A stretch of DNA of 37,443 bases from a filamentous cyanobacterium Phorm 6 (GTDB lineage: Bacteria; Cyanobacteriota; Cyanobacteriia; Cyanobacteriales; Microcoleaceae), in the NCBI GenBank assembly GCA_003003725.1, contig PVWI01000021.1:1-37443 (forward strand), written 5' to 3'. The position numbers were made by a program, and so were the translations under genes. The notes under the pieces were generated by a model. The model had not been told where the DNA came from, did no database searches, and saw nothing but the letters and a program-made list of their open reading frames with translations. Positions 7,625-26,567 of this stretch are shown in pieces. Every line of letters starts with the position of its first letter. The stretch's first letter is position 1.

Positions 7625-7734
7625 TGCACATCAAGGGGCATGGCAGGGTGTGGACAAGCAGAATAGTTGCACCACGTTGGGGATATCGAAGGATAGAATT
7701 GACAAATAATTGAGGATTGTGTAGGTCAGTAAAT

Positions 7735-9108
7735 ATGGTCAAGAGTCAAAAAACCAACCGTGACCACGCTAAAAAAACCACAAGACCGATGGTGGAAGAT
7801 GAAGCGATTGCCTCGCAACTATCGGCATTACTAACACCAGCCATCACTTCACAAGAAAATTACTACCGTCAACTGGGTTTGCGAGGAAGAATTCTTAATC
7901 TACCGTTGATGGTAGCAGCAGTATTAACTTTGCTGTGGCGAGACGTATCTGGAGTCACAGAACTCACAAGAATGTTAGCCAGAGAAGGTTTTTTGTGGTG
8001 CCGACCTACAACAGTAACTCAACAAGCAATGTCTCAAAGGTTTCTAAGTTTTCCTGCCACATTATTTGAGGGAGTTTTCAAAAATTTATTGCCGATTTTA
8101 AGAACTGCTTGGCACCAGAGAAACCAACGCCCTCTACCAGAAAGCATTCAATTTACCTTGAGAAAGTTTTCGAGAATTTGGATAGTAGATAGCTCAACAC
8201 TCGAAGCATTGTTTTGTAAACTCAAAAGCCTCGAAGGTATACCCAAAGGGCAGTTGGCAGGAAAAATGGCAACAGTCATAGATTTAATGACCAGGCTTCC
8301 TGTCGATATTTGGTTTCTGGAAAACCCGAGAGCTTCTGATGTTAAGATTGATGAAAACATCCTGCAATTAGTGCCAGCTAAAACCTTACTCTTACTGGAT
8401 AGGGGATTTTATCATTTTAGCTTTTGGCTCAAATTAATTGAAAGAGATATCCACTTAATCACTCGCTTGAAAAAAGGAGCAGCAGTTCAAGTACAGCAAG
8501 TATTAACCAAAAGTTACGACCTGAAAGATAGTCTGATACGTTTGGGTTCGGGAACAGCAAAAACTCCATTTATTACCTTACGCTTGATTGAAATTCGTTC
8601 GGGTAAAACCTGGCATTCTTATTTGACAAGCGTACTAGATCCTCAAGTGTTACCACCCTACGTCGTGGCAGATTTATATCGCAAGCGTTGGAGAATTGAA
8701 GAAGCTTTCAATACCGTAAAAAGGCTGTTGGGATTAAGCTATTTGTGGACGGGTTCTCTCAACGGGATTCAGCTTCAAATTTGGGGAACTTGGATATTCT
8801 ATGCAATCTTGGTCGATTTAGGTGATGCCGTTGCTGATCAACTCTCTTTACCAATTGATTCGATTTCATTAGAAATGATTAACCGGGGTCTTTACCATTT
8901 TTATGTAGCCCGCCAACAAGGTAAAGCAACTGACCCTATCGAGTATTTCGCCGCCCCTGAAAATCGAGACTTAGGTATTGTTAAAGCTCAACGAAAACCC
9001 AATATTAAGTTAATTGTTGCACCTTTCCCCGATCGACAGCGAGGCAAAGAGCAATTTTTCTTTGAGACATCTTCTCAAACCCCCTTGACAACTGCCATAC
9101 AGGCTTAA
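7735..9108 (+). CDS. IS4-family transposase, intact
   Basis: A 457-aa DDE transposase. The three catalytic positions are visible: IWIVDSST (Asp about 152), LLLLDRGFYHF (Asp about 222) and YRKRWRIEEAFNTVKRLLGL, the IS4 Y-(2)-R-(3)-E-(6)-K signature (Glu 322/323). I prefer the ATG at 7735, which has AGGT nine bases upstream; an in-frame TTG at 7717 would add six residues. The frame is uninterrupted, so the element may still be active. I could not define terminal inverted repeats. The right boundary probably lies near 9127, where sequence resembling a DUF433 gene begins. Confidence 0.9.
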   Translation: MVKSQKTNRDHAKKTTRPMVEDEAIASQLSALLTPAITSQENYYRQLGLRGRILNLPLMVAAVLTLLWRDVSGVTELTRMLAREGFLWCRPTTVTQQAMSQRFLSFPATLFEGVFKNLLPILRTAWHQRNQRPLPESIQFTLRKFSRIWIVDSSTLEALFCKLKSLEGIPKGQLAGKMATVIDLMTRLPVDIWFLENPRASDVKIDENILQLVPAKTLLLLDRGFYHFSFWLKLIERDIHLITRLKKGAAVQVQQVLTKSYDLKDSLIRLGSGTAKTPFITLRLIEIRSGKTWHSYLTSVLDPQVLPPYVVADLYRKRWRIEEAFNTVKRLLGLSYLWTGSLNGIQLQIWGTWIFYAILVDLGDAVADQLSLPIDSISLEMINRGLYHFYVARQQGKATDPIEYFAAPENRDLGIVKAQRKPNIKLIVAPFPDRQRGKEQFFFETSSQTPLTTAIQA

Positions 9109-9358: not shown

Positions 9359-11935
9359 ATGCCAGGTTATCAACCCAAACAAGGTACAATCATTAACAAT
9401 ATAAAGAGTCTTCTGAAAGAACGCTACAAACAAGGCTTTCCAATTATCAAAGAAATTATTCAAAATGCGAACGATGGCCAAGCCAAAACTCTTAAGTTCG
9501 GGATATCTAGAGGATTGGTTGGCACTGCTGAGAATCCTGTAGTTCATCCGCTTTTGACAACGCCTGCCCTATTTTTTCTCAATGATGGTGTGTTTAAAAC
9601 ATCTGATCGTGAAGCAATTTCTTGTTTTGGGATTGATGCAAATGCAGGAGATAAGGGCAAAATTGGTAAGTTTGGCTTAGGACAAAAAAGCATTTTTCAC
9701 TTTTGCGAAGCTTTTTTCTATATTGCGCGTTCTGAAGATTTTCCTAATGGGTGCGGTGCTTTTATTAATCCTTGGGCGACACCCGATGGTACAGATAGGA
9801 GACGACCAGAATGGATTGAGTTAAATGAAGTAGACCATGAGCATTTAAAAAAGTATCTAATCGATCGCAAGTTAATTGATACAGATAACCAATATTTCCT
9901 TCTTTGGGTTCCATTTCGACGACCGGATGATAAACGCTGTATTCTGGCCAATTATTACAATGACGAAAATTCTATTCAAGATAGTTTGCCTAATGATATG
10001 GATATCAAAATTGGGCAACTACTTCCTTTATTGCGACACCTGACAAATATTCAATATTGGGTTGAGGATGACACAAGAAAATTACAACAAAAATTCAATG
10101 TTTGCGTAGATTCTTCAGTTCCTTTAGAACGCTTTATTTACCCTAATAATGATAAAGATGCACTTTCACCTAATGAGCATCGTCTCGAAGGAAAAGTAAC
10201 TGTGAGTAAACAGGCGATCTCTTTTGCTGGTATTGAGCGGATATTGCCAGCCGAAGATTTTGCATTTTTACTGGGGCAAGATGCGGATAAAGCCTCAAAA
10301 AACTTTTGGGAAGATTTGCAGCAATCTTGCTACTGGAGCCAGCGATCATCTATCAATGAAGATAAAGATTATGAAGAAGAATTTATTCCTGACAAGTCAA
10401 TTCCTCACTGTGGTGTTGTTTTTACACAAAAATCAAGTAACACATCTCGTAGTGCTAAATTAACTCTTCAATGGGCAGTTTTTCTGCCTCTGGCGAGTGA
10501 TGAAAATAGCTCAAACGAAGAAGATCGTGCTGCATATCAACAAATTGATTGTGATGGCGAACAAGACTACACAATTTTCCTGCACGGTTACTTTTTTCTT
10601 GATTCGGGAAGAAAATATATTGAAGGGCTAAAGAATATTGATCGGGAAGTTCTCGCTCAACATCCTCCCCAAAACGAGGATGATATGGTCTGGCAGTGGA
10701 ACTACTTGCTTGCAACAAAAGGAACACTAAGACTTGTACTACCATCTTTGCGTGACTTTGTAGAGACTCATGGGCTTTCTAATATTGCTATATCACACCT
10801 ATGTCAAGGACTTCTTAAATCTCATCTGTTTAAAGGCAAAGTATTTAGGCAAAGTATTTATTTCGAGTATCAATGGGTATTTCGTACTTGTCGTTCGGTC
10901 AATCAGTGGCAACTTATAGGATTGGACGCAACTGTGCGATCGCTTCCTAGCATTCCTTCTAAGTCTATCTGGGATGCTTTCCCACAACTTAAGAAACTTG
11001 CCGAGCAATACTGCTTAACCGTTAAAGAAAAACCAAACTTACTTGTAGGAAAAAATACTCCCACATGGAAATCAGACGAAATATGCGCTATTATAAATTC
11101 ACTCGAACCTAGCAAAATTTTCTCGAATATTGATAATCTTAGCTTCCTCCAAGCTTTTTTAAGTCAAAGTCAGCAGGAAACTAAGGTTATCAATGATGAA
11201 GAAGTGCAGGTAAGCTTAAGAAAACTTCTTCATAAAGCTTTTGCAGAACTTGGTATAGCACAACTACAGGATAAAATTCTTCCCTTTGTAAAGAAATTGC
11301 TGGCACTTGTGTTACCAGAGAGTCGTTATGCGATCGCCAAATTCGACGCAAACGAGCCAACCGCCGTGCATAATATTCTTAACAAGCTCTATGCACTCAA
11401 CCTCGATGTGCTACTTATCTATGAAATTTTTGAGCCTGCATCACAATCTAGTCAAGCAATACTGAAATCTGAGCAAGCAGTTGACGTACTTACTTGTCTT
11501 AGTGATATCTTGAAAGAAGATAAGTCTATATACCTAGCAATTTGTAACCTGATTAAACAAATTCTTAGCAAGTTTGATTATCCTTTAATTATTATTGGTG
11601 AACTAGCTGATAAAATCTTATTTTACGGCTATAAATATCGCGAGAAAAAGACTTACCTTTGGAGTTATGCTAAACTATGCGAAAGTCGCTCCAAAAACCT
11701 TCTTTTCACAGGTAAATACAATACCATAGCGGCTGCCCTAAATGAAGCCATTCCTGATTATGACTTCATATTCATTGAGGAGAATCTCGCAAGCATACTT
11801 AACAAAATTCTAAGTATGAAAGGTATTTCTTCACTCACACTTGATAGCTGTAAAAACCTGCTTGACAAAAAACCAAATTTGGCTATTCCTGAACAACGCA
11901 TAAATCTATTGAAGGAGTTAATTCGTCATGTCTAA
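9359..11935 (+). CDS. Sacsin-type GHKL (HSP90-like) ATPase, 858 aa
   Basis: The N-terminal 120 residues hold the GHKL ATP-binding (Bergerat) motifs: PIIKEIIQNANDGQ (about 28-41, Glu/Asn for Mg-ATP), LFFLNDGVF (about 71-79, the D-x-G-type box), and KGKIGKFGLGQKSIFH (about 99-114, glycine lid). This arrangement matches the sacsin/HSP90-like branch. The remaining 700 residues are soluble, mostly helical in the second half, and match no domain I recognise. Its stop overlaps the next ATG by 8 bp, so the two proteins are probably made together and may form one machine. GHKL ATPases dimerise on ATP and clamp partners or DNA. A defence or DNA-surveillance role is inferred from the nuclease-bearing partner. 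Confidence 0.85.
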   Translation: MPGYQPKQGTIINNIKSLLKERYKQGFPIIKEIIQNANDGQAKTLKFGISRGLVGTAENPVVHPLLTTPALFFLNDGVFKTSDREAISCFGIDANAGDKGKIGKFGLGQKSIFHFCEAFFYIARSEDFPNGCGAFINPWATPDGTDRRRPEWIELNEVDHEHLKKYLIDRKLIDTDNQYFLLWVPFRRPDDKRCILANYYNDENSIQDSLPNDMDIKIGQLLPLLRHLTNIQYWVEDDTRKLQQKFNVCVDSSVPLERFIYPNNDKDALSPNEHRLEGKVTVSKQAISFAGIERILPAEDFAFLLGQDADKASKNFWEDLQQSCYWSQRSSINEDKDYEEEFIPDKSIPHCGVVFTQKSSNTSRSAKLTLQWAVFLPLASDENSSNEEDRAAYQQIDCDGEQDYTIFLHGYFFLDSGRKYIEGLKNIDREVLAQHPPQNEDDMVWQWNYLLATKGTLRLVLPSLRDFVETHGLSNIAISHLCQGLLKSHLFKGKVFRQSIYFEYQWVFRTCRSVNQWQLIGLDATVRSLPSIPSKSIWDAFPQLKKLAEQYCLTVKEKPNLLVGKNTPTWKSDEICAIINSLEPSKIFSNIDNLSFLQAFLSQSQQETKVINDEEVQVSLRKLLHKAFAELGIAQLQDKILPFVKKLLALVLPESRYAIAKFDANEPTAVHNILNKLYALNLDVLLIYEIFEPASQSSQAILKSEQAVDVLTCLSDILKEDKSIYLAICNLIKQILSKFDYPLIIIGELADKILFYGYKYREKKTYLWSYAKLCESRSKNLLFTGKYNTIAAALNEAIPDYDFIFIEENLASILNKILSMKGISSLTLDSCKNLLDKKPNLAIPEQRINLLKELIRHV

Positions 11936-14900
11936 AGAATTACGTTACTTGCTGCATGGAAATAAGGAAAAATATGATGATGTACAAACACCCTTATACA
12001 TCATCCCTCAAGAAAGTACGCTATGGCAAAAGATTGGGTTACAAGTTCTCACCAGTCGGAAAGAAGATTGGCGATTAATTAATTCAGTATTTATTGATTC
12101 CCTTCCTACTCCTACAGCTAATTTGAAAAGATTGGGAATTGAAAAACTTCTAGCTGAACAAGTTGTTGATTTAATTCGCCAAAACCCAGAGTCCGTCGAT
12201 GGAATTTTGCTGAACAAATCTGAGAGATATGAACTTCTCGCTTACATCAGCCAGAAACCTAGTAATCAATATCTATGGAAGTCATTACGATTGCATGAAA
12301 ATGCTAATAATCCTAATCGCTTAGAAAGCATCGAAGTTAATCGCGTTTATTTAGAGAATTCAGACTTTCCTTTAGATGAACGACTAAAAAACTACATCGT
12401 TTTAATTCGACGAAATACAGAAATTCAGCAAAACTGGATTCCGTCATGGACTCCTGATGCAGCGATCGCAAAAGTTCTTAGCCTACCGAATCCTCATCAA
12501 TACTATGGCATCATTCTCGATGCACTGCAAAGGATGACTGATGAAACAAAAGAATCGCACAAAGAGTCTTTAAAAAGTTCTGGGTGGCTTCCTCCAAATG
12601 GATATTGTCCACAAGATATACTCAAACTCCAAAATAATTTGGAGCAATATGCAAAAGAGATTGCTAGTTTAAATAAGAGTAAACATCCTCAACAGGTTCT
12701 ACATGAATCAGTCAGAAAGAGTAAAGTAGAGCATTGGATTAAGAGCTTATTTACAGTTTGGAATGCAGAAATAGTAATTAAGAAAATATTAACTCATAAT
12801 CAGAAAAATATTGAACATTGGCAAAGTTTTTGTCCAGTTATCCTTGATGCGCTATCTACAAATATTTCAGATGAATTAAAAACAATTCTTACGAGAGAAA
12901 GCTGGTTATTTTTAGGCGATCGTACTGTCTGTCTATCTCAAATTATTGAAACTCCTCGAAATAAACTCCAGAAACACCTATCAACACTGGTTCGTTTGAG
13001 TGCTGGTGAGTATGCCGAAATGAGCCAACTGCCTAAAGAAATTACGAACCATAAGAATTTTCCAATTCTCAATAAGTTTTTTTCACAATGGAAAGAGAAT
13101 GATGTTCTTGAGTTTATTCTAGCTCAAAACGAACCACACAAGTATTTTGAAATTATTCTGGATGCTCTCAGCAGTCTTTTACCGCAGTCTACTCCTAATA
13201 ATGTAAACACTCAAAAACTTAGCACGCTGGCTTGGTTGGTAGATAAACAGAGGAATGCTATCGATCCTAAGAGCATTATGATTCTGCACTACCCATCTCT
13301 AAATGAGGAGATTGAGGGCTTAGTCTATTTAGTTCCTGATCGTTATATATCATCTTCCCAATTAGCGAAGGAGTTTCGCAATCATAATGACTGTTCTCAG
13401 TGGCTTACTGAGAAACTATTCATCACAGAAGATGAAGCATTAATTGAGATTGGTAAACTTCTGAAGCAAGCGCCAGAATATCAGATTGGAGAGTTTTCTG
13501 TTGAAGAATTTCCCTTAGATAAATGCTTAGAAGCTTTCAAGCCATTTGATGTTAGCTTCCTGCCAGCCTGGAACTTTGCCAAAAACCTACCAAACGAGAA
13601 ATTCAAAAGATATCTGTTGCCAAACCTCTTAGATAAAATGGAGGTGGCAAAGCTCCGCGAGCTTCTAATATCGCTTTCTAGTCCCGCTTCTCAAGTGGAT
13701 GCTGCTAATGCCGCTAATGTGGAAATTTTCAATACTTATCTTGGATTAGCTATTAATTACGGAACATTCAGCACAGATATTTTACCCCACATCCGTCTTC
13801 TTAATCGTAAAGGTCAGTGGAAATCTCCTAATAACCAGTTAACAGGCGAAAACGCCAATATTGATGATACTTATGTGCTAGATAAAGAGCAGTTAGATAT
13901 TATACATTCATTCTTGAAATCAGAGACTCAAAGCAATTATGATTTACCAGAATCTGAGGAAGTTTTAGAAGACGAAAATAGCATCTTGATAAATTACTTT
14001 AAAAAATGGGAGGATCACTGTCCATTAGAACTCATTGGAGCGTTTCTGAGTCTTTTCAAGAGTTCTGATAATAAGATTAAGGAACAGGCGAAATATTATC
14101 TAGGCAGACGTAATATAGAACATTTGCAAGAACGCTTGCTGGAAAATACAGCAAAACCCATTCGAGTTTTTCAAGTGCGTATTGGTGACGATGGAAATCG
14201 GACGCGCAAGGTGACTTCAATACTGGGATGTACTTTTGACGCTGAACTTGCTGCTGATCTACCTAATCTGCCTCATTTTTTCGTCAATGAAGGTGAATTA
14301 GCCAGCAATAAGCTAGAACTGTTGCATATACAACTAGGAAAACTTACTCGTACTGAGTTAGTGAGAATTCTTAAAGACTCGACTGGAGTTCTTCTTAAAA
14401 AAGTTTATGGAGTCGAACCCAATATAGGAGCGATTTGGGATGATTTGCTAAATTCCGATCAGCTTGACATCCGAGTAGCTGAAAAATTGGTGATAAAGAA
14501 TGCTTCGTATATTCTGAGGGAGCTTGCAATACAGGAACTCAGTGTAAAAATGCTCTTGGACAACTTAGAAGACTTGCGTCGCAACGAAACCGAATACGAA
14601 GTACAAAATCTGAATGAAAAAAAACAAGCTACTGAAAAAGAGATTCAAGAAAAACTCTCTGAATTGTCAAATCTGCTAAAAAATAATGAAGGCGTAAAAG
14701 AGAGTTTACTCAAGTCTGTACGAGAAAAAATAAAGAAGTATGGCTATCGTCCCCAGAGTATCCCCTTTGAGCTATTTCAAAATGCCGATGATGCCGTAGT
14801 TGAATGGCAAAAAATGTCATCACCCACAGAACTTGAGGAAGAAAGAAAACAGTTTGTGGTGGTACTGAGCGATCGCCAGCTTTTATTTATTCATGCGGGT

Positions 14901-17258
14901 AGACCGATTGGGTGTTTCCAACATTCAGATAATCCAGAGAGAAACTATCGCGATGAGGGATACCATCGCGACCTTGAAAAGATGCTGACATTTAACACCT
15001 CTGACAAGGGAGATGGAGTAACAGGGATGTTTGGCTTAGGATTCAAAAGTGTTTATCTGTCATCATGTAAACGACCACGCATTTTAAGCAAGCGCTTAGG
15101 GTTTGCTGTCGAGGGTGGACTAATTCCTTCACGTCTCTCTCCTGAAGAAACTAAAGACTTGCAATACAAATTAGACTTATACAAGATGCCTTCAGATGCA
15201 ACAATTGTCGAACTAGAGTTAGAGCAGGGTATTCAGCCGCAAGAAATTATCACGAAATTTCAAGAACTAGCAGGTATTTTAACTGTTTTTTCACGGGCTA
15301 TTACAAAATATCGTTTTATTAACGATATTCAAGATAATGACTCAAAATTATTTACATGGGAGAGAAAACCTTTTCTGGGTATTCAAGGTATCGAAGTAAA
15401 TAAGATTACGATCAAGGGTGAAGACTCGCTACGACTGTGCCTGCGAACAGCATCTGGATCGGCTCTGCTATTAGATATGACCGAGAAAGACGGTAGGCTT
15501 AGTTGCACTACTCCTGATGCACCGACTTTTTGGGTAACAGCACCAACACAAGAAACACTTAACGTTGGTTTTATACTGAATGCAGCCTTTAAGGTGACAC
15601 CAGGAAGGACAAGGTTAGATTCAACAGGACAAAACAAAGAACTTGCTAATAATATTGGCATTGCGCTTGGTCAACTATTAAAGAAATTATGTGAAGCCAA
15701 CTGGGAAGATGTAAAAGTTGCTCTAGGTTTTTCTAGCGTAGATAGTTACAGCTTTTGGGAATTTCTTTGGAAAGAACTAGCCGTTAATTGGCAAAAAATC
15801 GATACTAATGAGCAGCGTGATCTGATTAGCGGTATTTTAGGCGGGGATCGCGGCATGGGATATCTCATTACCCGCAGTAAAGCCCTACCAAACGGATTAT
15901 ATGGTCAGTATCGCCAACTGATTTGTATCAATAGTAATACTAAATACTCCAAAGTGACAGGCAAACTTGCTGAAGAGTCTTGCTTCTGCAAAGTCGCTAG
16001 TTGGTCAAGCTTCCAGAAAAGTAGTGATCCACGTACTCTGATTGTTGATACTCAATGGGAAGAAGCCACAAAACTCTTAGACAAATCATTGTTTGATAAG
16101 CTCACCATTAACATTGACGATATACAACTGCTCAAGGCACTGAAAACCGAAGTTGGAGTCATTGAAGCAAAAGTAACGCCTGAAAAGGCAAGACAAGTAG
16201 GCAAGCTTATCTCAAAAGATTTTCTGAATAGCTTTAACAACTCTTCCGAGCGTGATAGCCTGAAAAAATTCCTGCCTCAGATTAAATTTCAATCAAAAGC
16301 TGGCAACTATCTACCCTCTGAACAATTGCTTTCAGCCACATCTAAAGAAGCTGAAGAGAAACTGTTAGTTGGTTTCGCACCCGATGATTGCTTACTGCAC
16401 GTTGACTATACCGACACTGCCATCGCTTTCTTCGATGCTTGTCGCTTGCAAAGAAAAAGTATTCCTGTAGAAGTTCTTCAAGAATGGGTATTACGGGAAG
16501 AAACGACGGAGAAAGGGCAGGCAATACGCGGCTATTTATCAAAAGGCGAACATCGAGATCAACTAGCAAAACTTCTTGACGAAAATCCTCAAGACTCTTG
16601 GATAAAAAAAGATCAGAGCATAAATGGACTTATAGACCGAATGATGGCAGTTATAACTGAGAGAGAAAAAGAATATCAGCGAGAACCAACAGATAGTAGA
16701 GAAAAAGAAGATCAGCTAAAACCCACAGGTAGTATTGTCCAGAACGATCAACAAGGTGTTGGAGATAACGCAGAAAAATGGGGTAAATTTGGTGAAGATG
16801 CAGCAAAACTATTTTACGAGAAACTTGGTTATGATGTTACCAAACAGCCAGATAAAGATGGTTATGATTTTAAATGTGTCAAGGCAGACAGTGAGTTATT
16901 TGTAGAAGTAAAAACAATTAATCCTAGATATAGCAATATAGTTCGGATTACACGCAACGAGTGCAGAGAAATGTGTAAAATTACGAATTCAGACAAATAT
17001 GAATTATTCATAGTCTGCCACAGTGGGGAATTAATCACGAATAGGATTCGGATTAAGTCTGCATGGAAAACATTACAGGAAGTCTTTTCAAAGCTCGATC
17101 AGCAAGCCCTCACTAATTGTGAGTATGCTGAAAAAGATCAAGAAGTTTTAATTGGGCTACAACGTAATTCAAATGGTTTAGATAATGACATATTGTTGAA
17201 CTGGAAAAGGCTGGTGAAAACTGGCTTGAGTAAGAATATAGAAGAAGTTTCTTCATAA
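11928..17258 (+). CDS. Giant GHKL ATPase with C-terminal DUF3883 nuclease-like domain, 1776 aa
   Basis: Residues 1 to about 870 are an unrecognised, largely helical region. About 880-925 is a charged coiled coil (LEDLRRNETEYEVQNLNEKK). A second GHKL module follows: IPFELFQNADDAV near 945-957 (N-box), LLFIHAGRPIG, where His-Ala replaces the usual acidic D-x-G residue, and GMFGLGFKSVY near 1033. The C-terminal domain, about 1617-1690, is DUF3883: GKFGEDAAKLFYEKLG, DGYDF and FVEVKT give the E, D and E-x-K of a PD-(D/E)XK nuclease. A linker before it repeats REKE(Y/D)Q..PT(D/G)S twice. RBS AAGGAG lies about 10 bp upstream, inside the previous gene. The odd D-x-G box may alter nucleotide turnover. 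Confidence 0.85.
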   Translation: MSKELRYLLHGNKEKYDDVQTPLYIIPQESTLWQKIGLQVLTSRKEDWRLINSVFIDSLPTPTANLKRLGIEKLLAEQVVDLIRQNPESVDGILLNKSERYELLAYISQKPSNQYLWKSLRLHENANNPNRLESIEVNRVYLENSDFPLDERLKNYIVLIRRNTEIQQNWIPSWTPDAAIAKVLSLPNPHQYYGIILDALQRMTDETKESHKESLKSSGWLPPNGYCPQDILKLQNNLEQYAKEIASLNKSKHPQQVLHESVRKSKVEHWIKSLFTVWNAEIVIKKILTHNQKNIEHWQSFCPVILDALSTNISDELKTILTRESWLFLGDRTVCLSQIIETPRNKLQKHLSTLVRLSAGEYAEMSQLPKEITNHKNFPILNKFFSQWKENDVLEFILAQNEPHKYFEIILDALSSLLPQSTPNNVNTQKLSTLAWLVDKQRNAIDPKSIMILHYPSLNEEIEGLVYLVPDRYISSSQLAKEFRNHNDCSQWLTEKLFITEDEALIEIGKLLKQAPEYQIGEFSVEEFPLDKCLEAFKPFDVSFLPAWNFAKNLPNEKFKRYLLPNLLDKMEVAKLRELLISLSSPASQVDAANAANVEIFNTYLGLAINYGTFSTDILPHIRLLNRKGQWKSPNNQLTGENANIDDTYVLDKEQLDIIHSFLKSETQSNYDLPESEEVLEDENSILINYFKKWEDHCPLELIGAFLSLFKSSDNKIKEQAKYYLGRRNIEHLQERLLENTAKPIRVFQVRIGDDGNRTRKVTSILGCTFDAELAADLPNLPHFFVNEGELASNKLELLHIQLGKLTRTELVRILKDSTGVLLKKVYGVEPNIGAIWDDLLNSDQLDIRVAEKLVIKNASYILRELAIQELSVKMLLDNLEDLRRNETEYEVQNLNEKKQATEKEIQEKLSELSNLLKNNEGVKESLLKSVREKIKKYGYRPQSIPFELFQNADDAVVEWQKMSSPTELEEERKQFVVVLSDRQLLFIHAGRPIGCFQHSDNPERNYRDEGYHRDLEKMLTFNTSDKGDGVTGMFGLGFKSVYLSSCKRPRILSKRLGFAVEGGLIPSRLSPEETKDLQYKLDLYKMPSDATIVELELEQGIQPQEIITKFQELAGILTVFSRAITKYRFINDIQDNDSKLFTWERKPFLGIQGIEVNKITIKGEDSLRLCLRTASGSALLLDMTEKDGRLSCTTPDAPTFWVTAPTQETLNVGFILNAAFKVTPGRTRLDSTGQNKELANNIGIALGQLLKKLCEANWEDVKVALGFSSVDSYSFWEFLWKELAVNWQKIDTNEQRDLISGILGGDRGMGYLITRSKALPNGLYGQYRQLICINSNTKYSKVTGKLAEESCFCKVASWSSFQKSSDPRTLIVDTQWEEATKLLDKSLFDKLTINIDDIQLLKALKTEVGVIEAKVTPEKARQVGKLISKDFLNSFNNSSERDSLKKFLPQIKFQSKAGNYLPSEQLLSATSKEAEEKLLVGFAPDDCLLHVDYTDTAIAFFDACRLQRKSIPVEVLQEWVLREETTEKGQAIRGYLSKGEHRDQLAKLLDENPQDSWIKKDQSINGLIDRMMAVITEREKEYQREPTDSREKEDQLKPTGSIVQNDQQGVGDNAEKWGKFGEDAAKLFYEKLGYDVTKQPDKDGYDFKCVKADSELFVEVKTINPRYSNIVRITRNECREMCKITNSDKYELFIVCHSGELITNRIRIKSAWKTLQEVFSKLDQQALTNCEYAEKDQEVLIGLQRNSNGLDNDILLNWKRLVKTGLSKNIEEVSS

Positions 17259-17370: not shown

Positions 17371-17692
17371 ATGTGGCAATCGCTTTCTTGTTTCTACAGA
17401 AGCTGGTGGTGAAGGGATTGATTTACAAGATAATTGTTACTCGCTTATTCATGTTGATCTACCTTGTAATCCTATGCGTTTACATCAGCGTGTTGGACGT
17501 TTAAATCGCTATGGGCAGAAGCATCCTGTGGAAGTAATTACGCTGCGTAATCCCGATACTGTTGAAACCCGTATTTGGGATAAGCTTAACGAGAAAATTG
17601 AAAATATTATGCAATCTTTAGAGCAAGTAATGTCTGAGCCAGAAGATTTGTTGCAACTTGTATTTCGACAGGCGATCGCTCTTGGGTGCTGA
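17371..17692 (+). pseudogene. SF2/SNF2-type helicase, C-terminal fragment
   Basis: The frame opens with FLVSTEAGGEGIDLQDN (helicase motif V) before any ATG, then DLPCNPMRLHQRVGRLNRYGQ (motif VI, with the arginine finger). It ends with VEVITLRNPDTVETRIWDKL. Motifs I-IV are absent; the sequence begins abruptly near 17371, just after the terminator of the ATPase/nuclease operon. The 3' end runs out of frame into a macro-domain fragment at a GCGATCGC site (about 17671). This helicase type often accompanies DUF3883-bearing proteins in defence clusters, so it may be the ruined third member of the upstream system. That link is inference. Confidence 0.75.
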
Positions 17693-18189
17693 ATTTCCCG
17701 ACTAAAAACCATTGGGAAAAACCTTCAGATGCAAAGTTTCTTGAGCTAGGCTTACAGAAGTTCGTCAATACTTACAAAGAAAAAGGGATTACCTCGATCG
17801 CTTTTCCTCTACTCGGTACTCAGAATGGGGGAATCCCTACAGATGAATCTTTAGCGATCATGCAGAAATATTTAAGCCATTGCGACATCCCTGTTGAGAT
17901 TTACCACTTTGACCCTGACGCGCCTGATGATCTGTTTACCGACTTAAAGACAGAATTTCTAAGGCTATCTGAGAGTGAACTGATAGAGGTGACGGGTTTG
18001 GGTAAGGCTTATATCAAACGAGTGCGGGAAGTAATAGAGGGTGATCGTACATACAGTCTCGCCGCATTGCTAGCAACGGAGGGAATCGGGCTAAAAACCG
18101 TAGAAAAAACGTTATGCTTGCTAAGAGTTCGGGGTGAAATGAGCCGTCGAACAGAAACTTACGCTAAGGAAATGATTGTGCCGTTTTGA
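17665..18189 (+). pseudogene. Macro-domain protein fragment, DarG-like
   Basis: The clear homology is VLNFPTKNHWEKPSDAKFLE, then GITSIAFPLLGTQNGGIP, the second half of a DarG/TARG-like macro domain that binds or removes ADP-ribose. The N-terminal strand and first ligand loop are missing. The frame can be followed upstream as GDRSWVLNFPTK to the HIP1 site at about 17671, where it overlaps the end of the helicase fragment in another frame. A C-terminal part (LIEVTGLGKAYIKRVREVIE, then GIGLKTVEKTL) looks helix-hairpin-helix-like. A TTG near 17686 could start translation, but half the domain is gone, so I treat it as broken. No DarT-like toxin is nearby. Confidence 0.7.
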
Positions 18190-18280
18190 ATATTGCGATC
18201 GCCTCTTATAAACCTGTACCAAATAATCTATGCTTATCCAGTAACACTTTCAGCCTTAACGTAACTTTCTGTACGACTGC

Positions 18281-18985
18281 TCATTTACCCCCCGTCAACA
18301 AGGGTAGTTGCCAGGTGCGGGGTAGGGATTGCTGCCACAAGCGGGGGGCATCTGGATAAGCTTGTAGTTCTTGAAAAAGAGCCATAGATTCGTCGCTATG
18401 TCCATCGACGAACGCTTCTCGATACACCCGTTGCATCAGATGGCTAGCAATTTCTTCCCAATTCCCCACAAACGGCTTGAACCCTTGAGGATGAAACATC
18501 AGCCGCATCAGATTAATCCTGCCGTTGATGCAGAAATGGTGTTGCAGCTTCTCTGGATGAACTAACCAATTGGTGAGCTGTTGCGCGGCTGTATTGCTCT
18601 GGATTAAATTCCAATAACGATCCATTACTAATGCCGGATAGGGTTCTTGCTGGCGCAAGATAAACTCTATGGCTTTGCGGATCGGTTCAACTTCAGGCGC
18701 TGATAAATCGGTTTGGGAATAAATCGGCGCAAAGCCCGCCGCCGTGAGCATGATGTTTTGGTCGCGCAGAGGAACATCTAGCACAGCCACCAGTTGCAGT
18801 ACCATATCCCGGCTGGGATTAGCTCTACCTGATTTTAAGAAGCTGATATGCCGCTGAGAGACATTGCCAGCTAAAGCCAAATCGAGTTGACTCAAACCGC
18901 GTTGATTGCGCCAGTGTTTGAGCAGATTCCCAAAAGAGGCGTCTCGGTTTGGAGTTGATTGCGTTGAGGTTGAAGCGATCGCCAT
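18281..18985 (-). CDS. Xre-family regulator with MmyB-like ligand domain
   Basis: A 234-aa protein. Residues about 18-75 form an Xre helix-turn-helix (FGNLLKHWRNQRGLSQLDLA, then NVSQRHISFLKSGRANPSRD). The rest matches the MmyB-like domain: YPALVMDRYWNLIQSNTAA, then NLMRLMFHPQG and ASHLMQRVYREA. The domain is thought to bind a fatty-acid-like ligand. Typical members run about 30 residues longer after LPLLT; this one stops at LPLLTGGK, so the end may be clipped. It is divergent from the DUF2834 gene, with a palindromic site between them, so it probably represses both. Confidence 0.85.
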   Translation of the reverse strand: MAIASTSTQSTPNRDASFGNLLKHWRNQRGLSQLDLALAGNVSQRHISFLKSGRANPSRDMVLQLVAVLDVPLRDQNIMLTAAGFAPIYSQTDLSAPEVEPIRKAIEFILRQQEPYPALVMDRYWNLIQSNTAAQQLTNWLVHPEKLQHHFCINGRINLMRLMFHPQGFKPFVGNWEEIASHLMQRVYREAFVDGHSDESMALFQELQAYPDAPRLWQQSLPRTWQLPLLTGGK

Positions 18986-18997
18986 TTTACTATCCTT

Positions 18998-19014
18998 ATT
19001 ACCTCATAGGTAAT
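18998..19014. promoter_or_regulatory. Operator palindrome between the MmyB-like regulator and DUF2834 gene
   Basis: ATTACCT-CAT-AGGTAAT, perfect 7-bp arms, 13 bp upstream of the regulator's start. Its placement between divergent genes, one encoding an Xre repressor, makes it the likely binding site. Confidence 0.6.
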
Positions 19015-19128
19015 TGTTTATATTATCTCGGAGGGTGACAATCAGAGCAACAGGGTTGATGACGAACTTTTACGCTTCGCCAAACCAAGTCCCTGTTGAA
19101 GTGCTGATAACAAAAGGAAAGTGAACCT

Positions 19129-19518
19129 ATGTCCAATGCAACTTATCTACACCGGCAAGTACCTACATCCAAAAAAATTCTGTCAACCCAATCGCTTTAT
19201 CTGCTGCTAACGATTATTGGTGCCATCGCGCCTTGGAGCTTTCTGCTGAAGTTCTTTCTCCAGAATGGTCTTGATCTCGATTTGTTTTTCCAGAATGCGT
19301 TCACCAATCATGTCGCTTCTGCCGTAGCAATAGATTTGCTCATTTGTGCAGATGTCTTCTTCTGTTTTTCATTTATTGAGCTGAAGCGATTAGGTTTGTC
19401 TCGTCGCTGGTTGTTTGTTTACGTTGTCGCTACTTTTGGCATTGGTGTGTCTTGTGCTTTGCCTTTATTTTTATATTGGCGCGAACGAGCGTTAGAAACC
19501 CTAAAGTTTGAGCATTAA
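19129..19518 (+). CDS. DUF2834 membrane protein
   Basis: A 129-aa protein with three hydrophobic segments: LYLLLTIIGAIAPWSFLLKF (about 23-42), VASAVAIDLLICADVFFCFS (about 62-81) and WLFVYVVATFGIGVSCALPL (about 93-112), then a charged end. The ALPLFLYWRERAL end is typical of DUF2834 proteins. RBS AAAGGAAAGTGAACCT precedes the ATG. It is divergent from the MmyB-like regulator, which probably controls it. The molecular function of DUF2834 is not known. Confidence 0.8.
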   Translation: MSNATYLHRQVPTSKKILSTQSLYLLLTIIGAIAPWSFLLKFFLQNGLDLDLFFQNAFTNHVASAVAIDLLICADVFFCFSFIELKRLGLSRRWLFVYVVATFGIGVSCALPLFLYWRERALETLKFEH

Positions 19519-19640
19519 GCTCTACGTGGAGACTTTCTGACTACAGCTCCGCGTTATCCTTATCGGCTGGCAAGGCTAATAAAGTCACCCGCGCCAGCCG
19601 CAAACACCTGTCAGATTGACTCGGCATCTGTGTGAGCCAT

Positions 19641-19680
19641 CAAAACCCGCACTCGGCAAATCTTCCGAGTGCGGGTTTTG
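19641..19680. terminator. Strong bidirectional hairpin terminator
   Basis: A perfect 16-bp stem, CAAAACCCGCACTCGG (19641-19656) and its complement (19665-19680), with an 8-base loop. The stem ends in an A-run on one side and a T-run on the other, so it can terminate in both directions. It lies about 120 bp after the DUF2834 gene. Confidence 0.8.
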
Positions 19681-19950
19681 GGGTACGACCTGACACAAGT
19701 CGAAGCCGTAGAACATCGCTTTGGCAGTGGAGCCTACATTATGAGGGTTACCGCTGGCGGTTTGTTGCAGTGTATAAAAAGTTGGTAAGGGCCGCGTCGG
19801 TGCAGCCCGCGAGCCGATTTTCGCTTATTAGCAGAATTCTTGTGGGAGAATCAAGACAGCGTTGAAGTTGACATTGACTACTGACAACTTTGAATTGAAT
19901 TTACTTAACAGAGCGATCGCCCTATTTTGGAAAGATGAGCTTTTACCGCT
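19681..19950. other. Intergenic stretch before the HNH gene
   Basis: About 270 bp without a supported gene. One plus-strand frame reads VEAVEHRFGSGAYIMRVTAG before a stop near 19785, which looks more like decayed coding sequence than chance, but I cannot name it. A HIP1 site lies at about 19913. Confidence 0.35.
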
Positions 19951-20289
19951 ATGCCTAAACCAAAGAGGTATCCCGACAATTGGCAAGAGATTGCGCTCTC
20001 GGTGAAAGAAAACGCAGGGTGGCGTTGTGCTAAGTGCCATCAACAATGCCTCCGACCCGGTAAACTCAGACCCGGTAAACAAAGCGGCTTAACCAAATCT
20101 GAACGGTGTGCCTTGACTTTGGCGGTGCACCATCGCAATCGGATACCAGAGGACAACCGCCCAGAAAACTTAATCGCTCTGTGTACCGCGTGTCACCTGT
20201 CCTATCACAATCGCGGTCAGTCCAACGTATCGCCAGGGCAATTATCCTTGTTCCTCGATGATGCGGTGGATTGGGATACTATCAACTGA
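19951..20289 (+). CDS. HNH endonuclease
   Basis: A 112-aa protein with a complete HNH layout: C26-x2-C29 (WRCAKC), the paired histidines LAVHHRN (H60, H61), N73 (RPENLIAL), the second zinc pair C78-x2-C81 with H82, and H86 (SYHN). It would be a small metal-dependent DNA nuclease, with zinc holding the fold. Between the first zinc pair and the histidines is an exact in-frame duplication, LRPGKLRPGK (DNA GACCCGGTAAACT twice), which lengthens a loop. It stands alone downstream of a terminator, so its partner is unknown. Confidence 0.8.
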   Translation: MPKPKRYPDNWQEIALSVKENAGWRCAKCHQQCLRPGKLRPGKQSGLTKSERCALTLAVHHRNRIPEDNRPENLIALCTACHLSYHNRGQSNVSPGQLSLFLDDAVDWDTIN

Positions 20290-20467
20290 ACGCTGGCGGC
20301 AATTGAATCTGTTTAGGATGCACTTTCCTGGCTGGTAAAACTAATAGTGCATGACGAATTGGAAAAATACTCGGAATGGGTCGTGACCGAATACCAAAAA
20401 ATTAGAGCAGCACAAAAATCGAGGCAAATTTAGCGAGGCTGGCTGGAATCCCCCGATTGCTCTTGAG
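20290..20467. other. Gap between converging HNH and GIY-YIG genes
   Basis: No gene, clear terminator hairpin or repeat is seen here. The two flanking genes converge on it. Confidence 0.4.
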
Positions 20468-21706
20468 TTAGGAGGATGTATTTTTCGGGGCGTCCGGCAC
20501 CGGTTGATAATTCTCCGCTTTCAAATCCAAAATAGCTTTTACTTTGCGAACCGTATTGACTGACACGCCAGCTTTTTGGGCCGCCTGACGCAATGACAAT
20601 CCCTCATTAATTGCTGCAATTGCTCGTTGCGATGAGGGTTTTTCCAAAAAAATCTCTGTCGATTCCGCACGAGGCGGCCGACCGACGTGTTGACCCCAAT
20701 TTTTAGCACGTTCCATCCCCTTTTTGATTGCATCCGAGCGCCTAGAAGCACGTTCCTCCCCTTCAATTAACTGCTCAATCCAACTGGGTTTACCTTCTAG
20801 GATGTCTGTTTCAACCTTTGATAATCCCTTTGCTTCCATCCGCCGCAAATCCCGAAGCACAGTTTTAGCTGGTTCGGGGGTGAAAAAGTTGTAATATTCA
20901 GTCCGATTGCCAAGAGAAATATTGAAGAACGAATATCGATATTTGAAATACTTCTCTACATTTCCGCGATGCGCCCAAACACCCAAAACCTTAATTGAAA
21001 CAGTTTGAAAATGGGGTGCCAGATCCTTTTGAATTTCAGACACTCGTGTTTGAACGTCTCGCTGAGTTACACCAATTTTATAAAGGGATTGTTCGCCCAC
21101 ATTAATTTGTAGGTAGTAGAGATTCTGAGATAAAATTTTCCGAAATTCAGCTTGATATATTTGCAAATCTCGCAAGCATTCATTGAAGTTAGCAGAGTTT
21201 TCTAGAGCGGCAACTTGAACATTTTCTTCAAGTTCCTGTAGCTTTTCCAACAACATTGGTTCTTGAACTTGATTGAACAACATCAAGGACAATGCACCAA
21301 CAGGAATCTTGCCCAGTTTTGTAAATTGGTATTTACCGCTGTAGCGATATTCGTTGAACTCAAGTAATTCTTCGTCAATAAAAATTTGGGGCACTTCTTT
21401 CTCTGGAATGCCTCGATTGTTGATTCCGTAGCGATTCCAGAGTTTTTTTAATTGCTCTAGTTCTTTGCCAGTCAGCCAAATGTTGAAATGGTCATACAGG
21501 GGGAGGTTGGGAAGTAAGCGCACGCTGCGGTTTAATTCCAGGCAAGTTTCGTGAGTGTGGGCAAAGTGATGCTCCTTGCGCCGACCCTTTTTAGCAGTCA
21601 GTTCGCCGTCGCAGTAAGGACACCTTAGCTGAGTTTTCCCGCCTCGTGGAACATCTTCGATCGACACTAGGGTTTTGTCTCGGTCAATGCCATATCTGAG
21701 CCACAT
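20468..21706 (-). CDS. CoiA-like zinc domain / GIY-YIG (MUG113/T5orf172-like) nuclease / HTH fusion
   Basis: A 412-aa protein with three parts. N-terminus: LRCPYCDGELTAKKG (C29, C32) and EHHFAH (H46, H47, H50), like the zinc-binding start of CoiA/competence-type proteins. Middle: NLYYLQINVGEQSLYKIGVT with R221 (about 195-225) and GNVEKYFKYRY (Glu 251), the GIY-YIG pattern of the MUG113/T5orf172 group. C-terminus (about 345-400): WGQHVGRPPRAES, then GLSLRQAAQKAGVSVNTVRK, a resolvase-type helix-turn-helix. It would be a sequence-guided nuclease or DNA-binding regulator. An inverted repeat (21713-21803) covers its RBS. The 314-aa gene lies upstream on the same strand, 97 bp away. Confidence 0.75.
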   Translation of the reverse strand: MWLRYGIDRDKTLVSIEDVPRGGKTQLRCPYCDGELTAKKGRRKEHHFAHTHETCLELNRSVRLLPNLPLYDHFNIWLTGKELEQLKKLWNRYGINNRGIPEKEVPQIFIDEELLEFNEYRYSGKYQFTKLGKIPVGALSLMLFNQVQEPMLLEKLQELEENVQVAALENSANFNECLRDLQIYQAEFRKILSQNLYYLQINVGEQSLYKIGVTQRDVQTRVSEIQKDLAPHFQTVSIKVLGVWAHRGNVEKYFKYRYSFFNISLGNRTEYYNFFTPEPAKTVLRDLRRMEAKGLSKVETDILEGKPSWIEQLIEGEERASRRSDAIKKGMERAKNWGQHVGRPPRAESTEIFLEKPSSQRAIAAINEGLSLRQAAQKAGVSVNTVRKVKAILDLKAENYQPVPDAPKNTSS

Positions 21707-21712
21707 TCAGAA

Positions 21713-21803
21713 GTATCCTTTTTTTGATACACGCTTGTCGGTGGGTTATCGTAGGGGGCGATAATGCTTTGGAGTTATGTTGACTGTATCAAAAAAAGGG
21801 TAC
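21713..21803. promoter_or_regulatory. Nested 19-bp inverted repeats over the GIY-YIG gene's RBS
   Basis: GTATCCTTTTTTTGATACA (21713-21731) and the complement of GTACCCTTTTTTTGATACA (21785-21803): one mismatch in 19. Inside, TTATCG...CGATAA (21746-21751, 21759-21764) forms a smaller stem. On the minus strand the left arm contains AAAAAAAGGATAC, the only RBS before the ATG at 21706, and the other arm reaches the stop codon of the 314-aa gene. Folding in mRNA would hide the RBS; alternatively the arms are operator half-sites. Confidence 0.65.
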
Positions 21804-22747
21804 TACGCGGGTGGTAGTGCATCAACGTTCGGATAAAGCTGGCGATATTTTTGCCAGTTTGAGCGATAGAAATGCCGACCGAACTGGGGGATGGCGAGGT
21901 CGTGTTCGTACCGCCCCCCAACAAACCCCGAACGTTCTTTGATGTGTCCCCCGCCACTGTAATCTCGCAACCTCAGCCAAGTCCATTCCCAGGAAAAGCC
22001 TCCGTAGTTTAGGTTTTCATCCTTCTTGACTCCCTCATCCCCCGCAACGTAGGCTGCAACTAACGCCGCCCACTGCCTCTCTTTCAGTTGCGCCTTTGGC
22101 GCTTTTTTGGGTGCTTCCAGACCCAATCCCGCCCTAGCGACGGCCCGCCCCTGAAGAGTAAGCTTGCAATCGAGCCACCGCAAGTCATCGTAGGGGTAGC
22201 GAATTTCAATCAGCTTGCGAGTCGCCAATGCCTTGAACGTGCTGCCCGTTCCGGGGTCAACTTCTCCCGCTTCTTTCAAAAGCCGCCTGAACGGTGTTGA
22301 CACCCCAAAAATTTCCGCGTACTCGATCCAGCGCCATTCACTTGCCGGCCTCGTTAGCCCGCGCCGCCAGTCCTTATTCCGTTCCAAGGCTTCCCGCTGC
22401 TGGTCCATTTCAAAAATCAACTGCAAGTAGGTTTGCTGCCTGGGGTTCAATTCATCCCAAAGCTGATGGTGTTTGGAGGGTTTGGACTCGACCGGCTCGT
22501 TCGGGGTTCTTTGGGGCGAATGTCGGTCGCCCGCCGTTTCTGCGCGCTTTTGTTTGGCAAGCTCGGGCGCTGCGGGGGTTTTTTCCAGGAAGGAAGGCGG
22601 GTCGGTCGGGTTGCCGCCAGCAGCAATAAATTCCGGGTAGCGATCGCACAGCGTTTCTACTTGAGTCCAGAGCGGTTGGGGTATTCTCATCTGTTTGGTG
22701 TCGTAGGGCGCTTTCTTTCCGCGACCGCCCTTTGGTTTGTCAGCCAT
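21803..22747 (-). CDS. Plasmid-borne protein of 314 aa, possible Rep or DNA-binding protein
   Basis: Starts with MADKPKGGRGKKAPYDTKQM, then RIPQPLWTQVETLCDRYPEF, an N-terminus I associate with cyanobacterial plasmid DNA-binding proteins that use a basic arm plus an RHH-like strand. A Pro/Glu-rich linker (about 50-90) follows. The C-terminal two thirds (WDELNPRQQTYLQLIFEMDQ, WRWIEYAEIFGVSTPFRRLL, LTLQGRAVARAGLG) suggests winged-helix DNA-binding units. A 19-bp inverted repeat overlaps its start codon, which would suit autoregulation. A replication or partition role is possible but unproven. Confidence 0.6.
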   Translation of the reverse strand: MADKPKGGRGKKAPYDTKQMRIPQPLWTQVETLCDRYPEFIAAGGNPTDPPSFLEKTPAAPELAKQKRAETAGDRHSPQRTPNEPVESKPSKHHQLWDELNPRQQTYLQLIFEMDQQREALERNKDWRRGLTRPASEWRWIEYAEIFGVSTPFRRLLKEAGEVDPGTGSTFKALATRKLIEIRYPYDDLRWLDCKLTLQGRAVARAGLGLEAPKKAPKAQLKERQWAALVAAYVAGDEGVKKDENLNYGGFSWEWTWLRLRDYSGGGHIKERSGFVGGRYEHDLAIPQFGRHFYRSNWQKYRQLYPNVDALPPA

Positions 22748-22800
22748 AAACCTGTCAACAAGTTTCTTTGGCTACCATTCTAAACTTGTTGACAGGTTTA
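22747..22800. promoter_or_regulatory. Perfect 19-bp inverted repeat at the start of the 314-aa gene
   Basis: TAAACCTGTCAACAAGTTT (22747-22765) and its exact complement (22782-22800), 16 bp apart. On the minus strand the gene-proximal arm spans TTGACAGG and touches the ATG at 22747, so it covers the RBS; the CTGTCAA/TTGACAG core is kept in both arms. It is either an operator for the gene's own DNA-binding product or a translation-blocking hairpin. Confidence 0.75.
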
Positions 22801-22897
22801 CAACTTGCCCCCAATAATTTGATCGCGCGCGGCTTATCCCAAACAGAAAATCCCATTGCGCCCCTGCTTTCTCAAGCTATTAATCTTTTTCGAGTAG

Positions 22898-22903
22898 TAT
22901 AAT
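22898..22903 (+). promoter_or_regulatory. TATAAT -10 box upstream of the 182-aa gene
   Basis: A consensus TATAAT sits 40 bp before the ATG at 22944. No good -35 box is seen at 16-18 bp, so the promoter may be activator-dependent. Confidence 0.4.
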
Positions 22904-22943
22904 GTATGCAGTCTTGTAGTTAACTTTACCCCAATAGATTGGT

Positions 22944-24377: not shown

Positions 24378-24380
24378 CAC

Positions 24381-24869: not shown

Positions 24870-24972
24870 TCAATCATTTAATAGGTTGGTTGTTGGTTGT
24901 TGGGTCGGTAGTGGCTGTACGATCGGCAATTGTGCAGCCACCTCGTAACGACCGCAATAAACTCAAAAAAAA

Positions 24973-25811: not shown

Positions 25812-25878
25812 ATTGTACCCCTTCTGAGTCCCTGTGTATACCCTCAAAGTAAACTATTGGGCATGAGGGAGAATCCTT

Positions 25879-26559: not shown

Positions 26560-26567
26560 TTTTTAAC

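Follow-up and report, generated by a model that had tools for sequence, protein, structure and literature searches.

Two-gene locus and the question it raises

What is the function of two overlapping genes that both encode GHKL motifs, the second of which also ends in a nuclease-like domain? The pair, here named A and B and together AB, lies in a DNA stretch of 37,443 nucleotides from a filamentous cyanobacterium, and this whole stretch is referred to as the window. An initial annotation, made from the letters alone, had proposed an ATPase machine that licenses a nuclease. Here, the proteins were compared with domain models and solved structures, their relatives were collected and the DNA around them was inspected. 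The features are listed in Table 1.

Table 1. Features of the AB locus and of the DNA directly behind it
Feature	Position	Strand	Evidence
Gene A (858 aa), ATPase subunit with a sacsin-type GHKL region	9359..11935	+	ORF, profile matches, motifs
Gene B, conserved core with second sacsin-type GHKL region and C-terminal effector, 1776 aa	11928..17258	+	
Overlap of A stop and B start, 8 bp, ATGTCTAA	11928..11935	+	
GHKL region of B: motif I FELFQNADDA (947-956), motif II HAGR (989-992), motif III GMFGLG (1033-1038)	14760..15060	+	
Swappable C-terminal part of B, residues ~1570-1776	16638..17258	+	
NOV_C (DUF3883) effector, probable PD-(D/E)XK-type nuclease: E1623, D1647, E1660, K1662	16707..17255	+	Pfam, conservation
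Scar: gene fragment covering residues 540-634 of a C3-type SNF2 (DrmD-like) protein, 87% identity	17381..17665	+	
Scar: DarG-like macro-domain gene that lacks ~66 residues at its start, 83% identity to the macro-domain gene of the DarT-type locus G106	17674..18165	+	

A and B recur as a pair

The two open reading frames and the 8-bp overlap between them, as initially annotated, were confirmed, and an 8-bp overlap was also seen in 9 of the 15 loci that have A and B as separate adjacent genes. At five further loci (L048, L075, L079, L080 and L107) A and B are fused into one gene, and the fused proteins of 2459-2522 amino acid residues have two GHKL regions, not one followed by NOV_C. The initial annotation had made its proposal depend on whether the pair occurs elsewhere, and this is the case: among 388 genomes of the order, the core of B was found near full length in 15, and these 15 also have A at nearly its full length. 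When the 15 B-bearing genomes were searched again, A was found in every one of them. A partial match to B without A was observed in one genome (G533). A known housekeeping complex, to which the homologues might have belonged, did not turn up and the distribution is patchy. No description of the A-B pair was found in the literature searched.

The G+C content between 9 and 17 kb is low (0.36-0.40), a composition that fits a foreign origin. A phage-borne system was considered and found to be unsupported. None of 50,697 phage records matched the A-B locus, and a viral collection yielded a single AB locus, on one contig, adjoining integrase and type I restriction-modification (R-M) genes. The same collection held one single-gene protein with SACS and NOV_C (L076), and nothing was found in it with NOV_C as the query.

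GHKL regions of the two subunits

The GHKL motifs quoted by the initial annotation are present in both A and B. The A protein matched Pfam SACS with an E-value of 1.5e-16 and NCBIfam P_loop_sacsin with 2.4e-18, above the cut-off, and comparison of its profile with solved structures led to sacsin domains (E 7e-16). Motif I of A contains E32, N36 and D39, motif II reads NDG and motif III GKFGLG, and R418 is found in the middle region. Motifs I and III were kept in 21 of 21 aligned rows; motif II followed the pattern N/D-D/N-G/A, the same as in sacsin.

The matches of B were weak, with E 0.0033 for Pfam SACS and 1.2e-7 for P_loop_sacsin, both below cut-off. Its best solved chains were sacsin and endoplasmin at E 0.04-0.06, values that alone are not significant. 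Motifs I and III of B were likewise kept in all 21 rows, and motif II lacked an acidic residue in all 21; ATP binding by B is therefore doubtful. An AlphaFold prediction of residues 880-1590 of B, computed from just 5 sequences, had a mean pLDDT of 34 and the model was unusable. A is the likelier working ATPase of the pair; the GHKL site of B is atypical and may be regulatory.

The C-terminal end of B is a NOV_C domain

Residues 1635-1700 of B matched Pfam NOV_C (DUF3883, PF13020) with an E-value of 3.9e-10 and 40.1 bits, against a curated cut-off of 22.1. The E/D/E-x-K residues noticed in the initial annotation as nuclease-like are present and conserved: K1662 is kept in all 11 NOV_C domains that were aligned, and E1623, D1647 and E1660 each in at least 90%. 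The NOV_C domain of B is a probable nuclease of the PD-(D/E)XK type, as far as conservation can tell. The AlphaFold model of NOV_C, from just 4 sequences, was unusable (mean pLDDT 35), and the two matches to solved structures (E 0.21 and 0.34) were taken as chance. When the NOV_C profile was compared with an Mrr domain, a NucS-like protein and, as an unrelated control, a macro protein, nothing was obtained with any of the three, control included, and the comparison is for this reason uninformative.

The effector module is exchanged between relatives

The relatives were sorted by the tail of B. Among 24 loci, some of which are close relatives and hence not independent (L082 and L084; L080 and L107; the window, L043 and L044), the module type was settled for 22: NOV_C in 7, DarT in 6 and an unnamed module, C3, in 9. 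An overlapping macro-domain gene was present at all six DarT-type loci. At the C3-type loci a DrmD-like SNF2 gene then follows B (9 of 9), and neither a macro-domain nor an SNF2 gene was intact at the seven NOV_C loci. The DarT domain was recognised in DarT-type relatives with E-values of 9.8e-30 and 4.2e-27. Judged by its family, this DarT would ADP-ribosylate thymidine in single-stranded DNA. The genome of the window has no DarT. In the literature searched, no earlier description was found of a DarT controlled by an Hsp90-like ATPase.

The exchange is visible in the DNA. In two loci of one genus, L104 and L105, the homology ends sharply at about residue 1570 of B, beyond which L104 has NOV_C and L105 has DarT. 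The identity along B was mosaic in G003, G011 and G106, and with a tree of the B core the AU test rejected the NOV_C loci as one clade (p-AU 0.0003). B consists of a conserved core and an exchangeable C-terminus, and the effector cassette was most likely swapped through recombination.

Remnants of other modules are found behind B

Directly 3' of B in the window, the stretch from 17381 to 18165 contains the two gene fragments listed in Table 1. Scars of two other module types were also found behind B in G011. The macro-domain scar appears as an open reading frame at 17686-18189, which was considered as a functional component of the system in the window and rejected, because it lacks about 66 N-terminal residues, lies in another frame and is placed directly behind the helicase fragment.

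Many of the genomes are drafts, G003 for example being 74% complete in 640 contigs, and the exchange might have been created by assembly or alignment. We regard such an artefact as extremely improbable, since the DarT-macro and C3-SNF2 linkages recur across genomes, the latter extending to plasmid records that are labelled complete, the breakpoints are seen at the DNA level and the scar of the window has a 99% identical copy in a second genome.

The DarT and macro-domain genes have the layout of a toxin-antitoxin module. With several loci on plasmids and a part of the window's flank resembling a conjugative plasmid, AB might stabilise plasmids or islands and not act in defence. This is improbable, as no antidote gene was present in the flanks of the NOV_C loci examined, the C3 loci are paired with a helicase and not with an antidote, and about 2600 residues of ATPase would be costly for addiction.

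Defence setting and proposed mechanism

The genes near AB include a BREX operon (L085), Zorya genes (L104), a DpdE-like gene (L082), drmC with a methyltransferase (L077) and type I R-M genes (L075, L080), neighbours that were chosen by eye and without a background rate. Of 10 proteins searched in the defence-gene neighbourhoods, 3 had no match. In the window, no complete recognised system was found among the 10 proteins scanned with PADLOC.

It could be argued from these neighbours that AB is the effector arm of an adjacent BREX, DISARM or type I R-M system and relies on its DNA marking. In L085 the AB genes sit between PglX and PglZ, methyltransferase and specificity genes adjoin the C3-type AB in L075 and L080, and the methyltransferase of L077 is a cytosine methyltransferase. 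However, the neighbours vary from locus to locus and, in the window, the scanned genes next to AB included none recognised as of this kind, which makes an effector arm unlikely.

The reading that we prefer, and hold to be probable from the sequence comparisons, is that AB is an obligate two-subunit switch of the sacsin type that licenses exchangeable effectors, probably in anti-phage or anti-plasmid defence. A and B, probably in a 1:1 ratio, would form one obligate machine that is built on two Hsp90-like GHKL repeats of the sacsin type and acts as an ATP-dependent sensor and switch. We infer that it keeps the C-terminal effector of B inactive until an invasion cue leads to its release. In the window the released effector would be NOV_C. 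In relatives the same switch would bear DarT, with the macro-domain gene resembling an antidote, or C3, which would work with the DrmD-like SNF2 helicase. Such a system would most likely serve against phages or plasmids.

The machine of the initial annotation is retained as a paired ATPase with an attached effector, often near defence genes. Its nuclease is not the sole effector: the exchangeable effectors number at least three, so that "licenses a nuclease" is too narrow. The ATPase may also act as the clamp proposed there, and its target may be foreign DNA.

A wider reading is possible and is put forward more tentatively. AB may represent a polymorphic immune platform, in which a conserved Hsp90/sacsin-like switch of two subunits fires whichever tail cassette recombination has placed there: a nuclease, a nucleic-acid ADP-ribosyltransferase acting on DNA and accompanied by its antidote gene, or a module linked to a helicase. 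Exchange would extend to the sensing end of A, and the loci would keep fossils of old cassettes, as polymorphic toxin-immunity loci do. If true, sacsin-type ATPases would be general immune switches with interchangeable outputs, like the heads of a tool. It would then be possible to study sensing apart from killing, because the same core bears NOV_C in L104 and DarT in L105 within one genus.

Comparison with known systems

No full-length match to a PADLOC model was obtained for A or B, which agrees with the initial annotation, where the pair was matched to no named defence system. Similar parts are found in Tiamat, which is defined as a single-gene system. Its protein TmtA shares with AB a GHKL ATPase of the sacsin type and a NOV_C domain at the C-terminus, and PADLOC labels pieces of A and B as TmtA, so AB might be a divergent Tiamat with its gene split in two. 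We consider this rather unlikely. A and B reached the TmtA models in pieces (about 100 ATPase residues or NOV_C) with 17-47 bits, whereas the single-gene relatives L051, L052 and L053, which served as positive controls and have NOV_C at the end, reached 753-1005 bits. TmtA is one gene, whereas AB is two genes or one fusion, and two GHKL regions are present in all these forms. On this model coverage the filing of AB as Tiamat was rejected. The survey of tails covered AB, where the exchangeable ones include DarT and C3.

The principle proposed for AB has a precedent in VcSduA, a Shedu protein with a GHKL N-terminus. Its GHKL ATPase precedes a PD-(D/E)xK-type nuclease in one protein, and experiments showed that both are needed for phage defence (PMC12137116). 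Unlike AB, VcSduA is a single protein with DUF4263 (same source), and this Shedu nuclease domain was not found in A or B with Pfam at E-values up to 1. Shedu as described there combines one nuclease with varied N-termini, whereas AB combines one ATPase core with varied C-termini.

DarTG has DarT and a macro-domain gene, as have the DarT-type relatives of AB. The DarTG toxin is small and separate, whereas DarT at these loci is the tail of an ATPase subunit of about 1950 residues. The window retains the macro fragment, and a DarT with a macro antidote is absent from it, the genome having no DarT and the macro gene being beheaded.

DISARM is resembled in its DrmD by the SNF2 gene of the C3-type loci, and the SNF2 protein of L077 matched the PADLOC DrmD model PDLC02634 over the whole length with 2174 bits. 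The DISARM proteins found do not include A or B. Among the 10 window proteins scanned with PADLOC there was no drmA, drmB, drmC or DISARM methyltransferase, and of SNF2 only the fragment. Since the SNF2 gene follows B in all nine C3-type loci, it probably belongs with AB as a partner. If the proposed switch is true, the model now named DrmD may describe in some genomes an AB partner.

Animal sacsin has repeated Hsp90-like ATPase and middle regions, and A aligns to its solved domains. It is reported to act as a chaperone and to have HEPN as its C-terminal domain (PMC3710099), and with their sacsin-type repeats A and B might similarly be a chaperone of protein quality control. This is very improbable, as AB occurs in few genomes (15 of 388) with a patchy distribution, has nuclease-like and DarT tails that are exchanged and lies next to defence genes. 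AB is also far shorter than animal sacsin and is divided into two subunits, Pfam reported no ubiquitin-like domain in A or B, and NOV_C, DarT or C3 replace DnaJ and HEPN. If the proposed switch is true, animal sacsin with its HEPN tail would join the prokaryotic ATPases that carry exchangeable tails attacking nucleic acids.

Domains and ATP sites of genes A and B

Genes A and B overlap by 8 bp in the window. A matched the Pfam sacsin domain at E 1.5e-16, and B matched it under the cut-off and NOV_C/DUF3883 at E 3.9e-10. With NCBIfam P_loop_sacsin, A scored 2.4e-18 (over the cut-off) and B 1.2e-7 (under the cut-off). The solved sacsin domains were recovered by a profile of A at E 7e-16; the best solved chains for B were sacsin and endoplasmin, both weak at E 0.04-0.06. 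A middle stretch is similar between A and B (hhalign probability 94%); in it R418 of A aligns with R1227 of B, each invariant in its own alignment. The sacsin matches and the shared middle stretch make it probable that A and B together contain two sacsin-type repeats. In sacsin, a middle-domain arginine is reported to take up the phosphate once ATP is hydrolysed (PMC3629688), and R418 and R1227 would be its equivalents.

The GHKL motifs I and III were present in 21 of 21 A rows and 21 of 21 B rows, drawn from two locus sets that differ in membership. In A, motif II is N/D-D/N-G/A, close to that of sacsin. In B it reads H/Y/N-x-G-R in all 21 rows, where x is A, T, L, W or H. Judged by sequence, A is likelier than B to be the working ATPase, and the GHKL site of B may be regulatory.

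Features and their coordinates
Feature	Record	Coordinates	Strand	Description
DDE transposase gene	window	7717-9108		PF01609; immediately upstream of A
Gene A	window	9359-11935		858 aa; sacsin domain
Gene B	window	11928-17258		1776 aa; C-terminal NOV_C/DUF3883
SNF2 scar	window	17381-17665		residues 540-634 of C3-type SNF2 protein, 87% identity
Macro scar	window	17674-18165		residues 67-234 of DarT-type macro protein, 83% identity
MmyB-like HTH regulator	window	18281-18985	minus	right past the scar
Small protein	window	19951-21706		weak HNH match; one of two proteins within this span
CoiA-like protein	window	19951-21706	minus	matches CoiA N-terminal and MUG113/T5orf172; the other protein within this span
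ParA-type match	window	32267-33100		weak
DUF6753	window	33577-34698
Gene A of G106	L045; G106:C6	14264-16354; 629923-630345		two pieces
AB	L049	3936-13916		genome G134
AB	L078	3732-10337		Synechocystis B12 plasmid
AB, C3, SNF2	L108	8001-17884		Sphingomonas plasmid
Sacsin-type protein	L081	4504-10815		Haematobacter plasmid; 2103 aa
SNF2 gene	L077	14537-17254		PADLOC PDLC02634 (DrmD)
AB in BREX operon	L085	2115-19998		NOV_C type
AB + SNF2	L075	2-11714		C3 type, fused
AB + SNF2	L080	4753-18368		C3 type, fused

Pairing, spread and fusion

Among the 388 Cyanobacteriales genomes, a near full-length B core was found in 15 and an A match (E up to 1e-20) in 16, with 15 genomes shared. In the sixteenth A genome, G581, a draft that is 63% complete, the match is 63 residues long and lies where a contig ends, and G533 (draft 85% complete) holds a partial B match without A. 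Near full-length B was present in 7 of 386 genomes of a phylum sample. The 72,556 plasmid records yielded 7 with A, 7 with B and 7 with fused AB. Two Trichormus plasmids, two Deinococcus plasmids and one each of Synechocystis and Haematobacter were common to all three lists. A Sphingomonas plasmid was in the A and AB lists, and a Calothrix plasmid was matched by B alone, with the match confined to NOV_C. Fusions of A with B occur in L048, L075, L079, L080 and L107; those of L049, L078 and L081 are incomplete or divergent. They are separate and adjacent in 15 loci, 9 of which have the 8-bp overlap (the window, L044, L046, L050, L082, L083, L084, L104 and L105). A and B are one system.

The AB chain of L108 is divided elsewhere, into 1607 and 799 aa, and is followed by C3 and SNF2. 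The two pieces of gene A in G106 lie about 1.5 kb apart, with a 450-aa opposite-strand ORF between them. Similar integrase-like and CAP-like ORFs precede AB in the Synechocystis B12 plasmid and in G134, as if one mobile element had carried both.

Three tail types of B

The tail of B was typed by BLAST, comparing the modules with ORFs 150 aa or longer, in 24 AB loci (the window, L043-L050, L075, L077-L085 and L104-L108); L055 and L056, duplicates of L043 and L044, and a second Trichormus strain were left out. Some loci are close kin (window/L043/L044, L082/L084 and L080/L107), and the independent cases are therefore fewer than 24. NOV_C was found in 7 loci, and in the flanks examined (for L050, 1.3 kb behind B only) none of the 7 had an intact macro gene, which is DarG-like, or a cognate SNF2 gene, which is DrmD-like. 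DarT was found in 6 loci, in all of which a macro-domain gene overlaps B by 11 or 20 bp. It was recognised by Pfam in two loci (9.8e-30 and 4.2e-27) and by PADLOC in a third; the DarT of L082, L083, L084 and L105 are 59-64% identical to the first Pfam-matched one.

The third tail, C3, is an unnamed module of about 280 aa for which a Pfam search gave no match. It was found in 9 loci (L047, L048, L049, L075, L077, L079, L080, L107 and L108), each time with the same SNF2 gene next. C3 occupies its own frame in L049 and is a weak match in L108 (25% identity); in L080 the first ~64 residues are missing from the SNF2 frame. Five of the 72,556 plasmid records contain C3, each one an AB record. Conserved in the C3 modules are WW, Y, GR, GxG and REL-R positions. 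Two loci fall outside the three classes: L078 is cut short next to transposase genes, and the similarity of L081 to B is limited to the GHKL region. The L081 protein has sacsin-type domains without a recognised NOV_C, DarT or C3 tail and is perhaps a further effector type.

The best supported reading is that AB is a predicted ATPase switch of two subunits whose tail, putatively nucleic-acid-attacking, can be interchanged. Among these loci an intact macro gene accompanies DarT and no other tail, a sign that leaking DarT may endanger the host. NOV_C seems to be restrained by the switch alone.

Exchange of both ends

Both the start of A and the tail of B are exchanged, because identity breaks off at either end. 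L104 and L105, from one genus, share 83% DNA identity over 7.3 kb from A through the B core; the homology stops at B residue ~1570, with NOV_C beyond in one and DarT in the other. G106, with DarT, is 77% identical to the window in DNA up to B residue ~1558 and about 20% identical in protein behind it. G003 shows 84-96% identity to the window through A residue ~675, 23-55% in the middle and 76-84% over B 1468-1767. In G011 the first ~525 residues of A differ (30-42% identity) and are closest, among seven compared, to the C3-type L047 (57%); from there to the end of the scar the DNA is 93% identical to the window.

A B-core tree of 21 rows (L078, L081 and L108 excluded) required 4 effector-type changes against a minimum possible of 2 and a shuffled mean of 10.4. 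NOV_C as a single clade was rejected (p-AU 0.0003), and the C3 rows form one side of a weakly supported branch (67/70). Long branches lead to L075 and to the Deinococcus rows.

History and surroundings of the window locus

The SNF2 and macro scars behind B lie in different frames. G011 has the scar stretch too, at 99% identity, and both fragments were sought without a find in L043, L050, L085, L104 and L106. The window NOV_C is 78% identical to that of G003 and 36-42% to those of L085, L104 and L106. Since the closest B core outside the clade of the window, that of G106, is DarT-type, the simplest history from sequence comparison would be a DarT-type ancestor whose tail was swapped for a NOV_C of the G003 kind, a piece of a C3 locus being captured meanwhile; we infer this order of events. 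A search for DarT in the genome of the window gave no match.

The A-B stretch has a G+C content of 0.36-0.40, under most of the window. Parts of positions 18000-37000 resemble pOSC7112.02, a conjugative plasmid of Oscillatoria nigro-viridis: a 19-kb query from the flank aligned with it at 95% identity over 32% of the query length. The contig may be a plasmid.

Defence genes near AB

Neighbours were chosen by eye, and in one scan 3 of 10 neighbour proteins had no match. In L085 AB lies within a BREX operon in the order PglX, A, B, PglZ, BrxD, BrxHI, and in the NOV_C-type L104 it is preceded by ZorA, ZorB and an EH_Signature protein. Near AB are also a DpdE-like helicase (L082), a UvrD/GajB-like helicase (L083), Mrr (L045), drmC with a cytosine methyltransferase (L077) and a phage-defence-candidate helicase (L108). 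In the unrelated records L075 and L080, NucS-like, methyltransferase and HsdS-like genes adjoin the fused AB and SNF2, as if these supplied the restriction function in an R-M-like system.

Comparison with known systems

PADLOC gave the name Tiamat (TmtA), a single-gene system, to pieces of A and B at 17-47 bits, whereas three single-gene relatives reach 753-1005 bits; in one relative record, L052, the best stretch spans about half of the model. Since these single-gene relatives also terminate in NOV_C, AB shares parts with Tiamat, but it falls short of the TmtA coverage. For DISARM, the DrmD model fits the L077 SNF2 protein over its full length with 2174 bits. This gene comes after AB, so some DISARM calls may be based on a partner of AB.

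In the literature searched, which covered few subscription articles, no paper was found that deals with the A-B pair or with a DarT that follows a sacsin-type ATPase. DUF3883 has been termed a novel REase domain (excerpt of PMC3710099). Among systems tested by experiment, the closest precedent for the principle of an ATPase with a nuclease is VcSduA, for which PMC12137116 describes that ATPase and nuclease residues are both required and that protection was seen at every phage dose tested.
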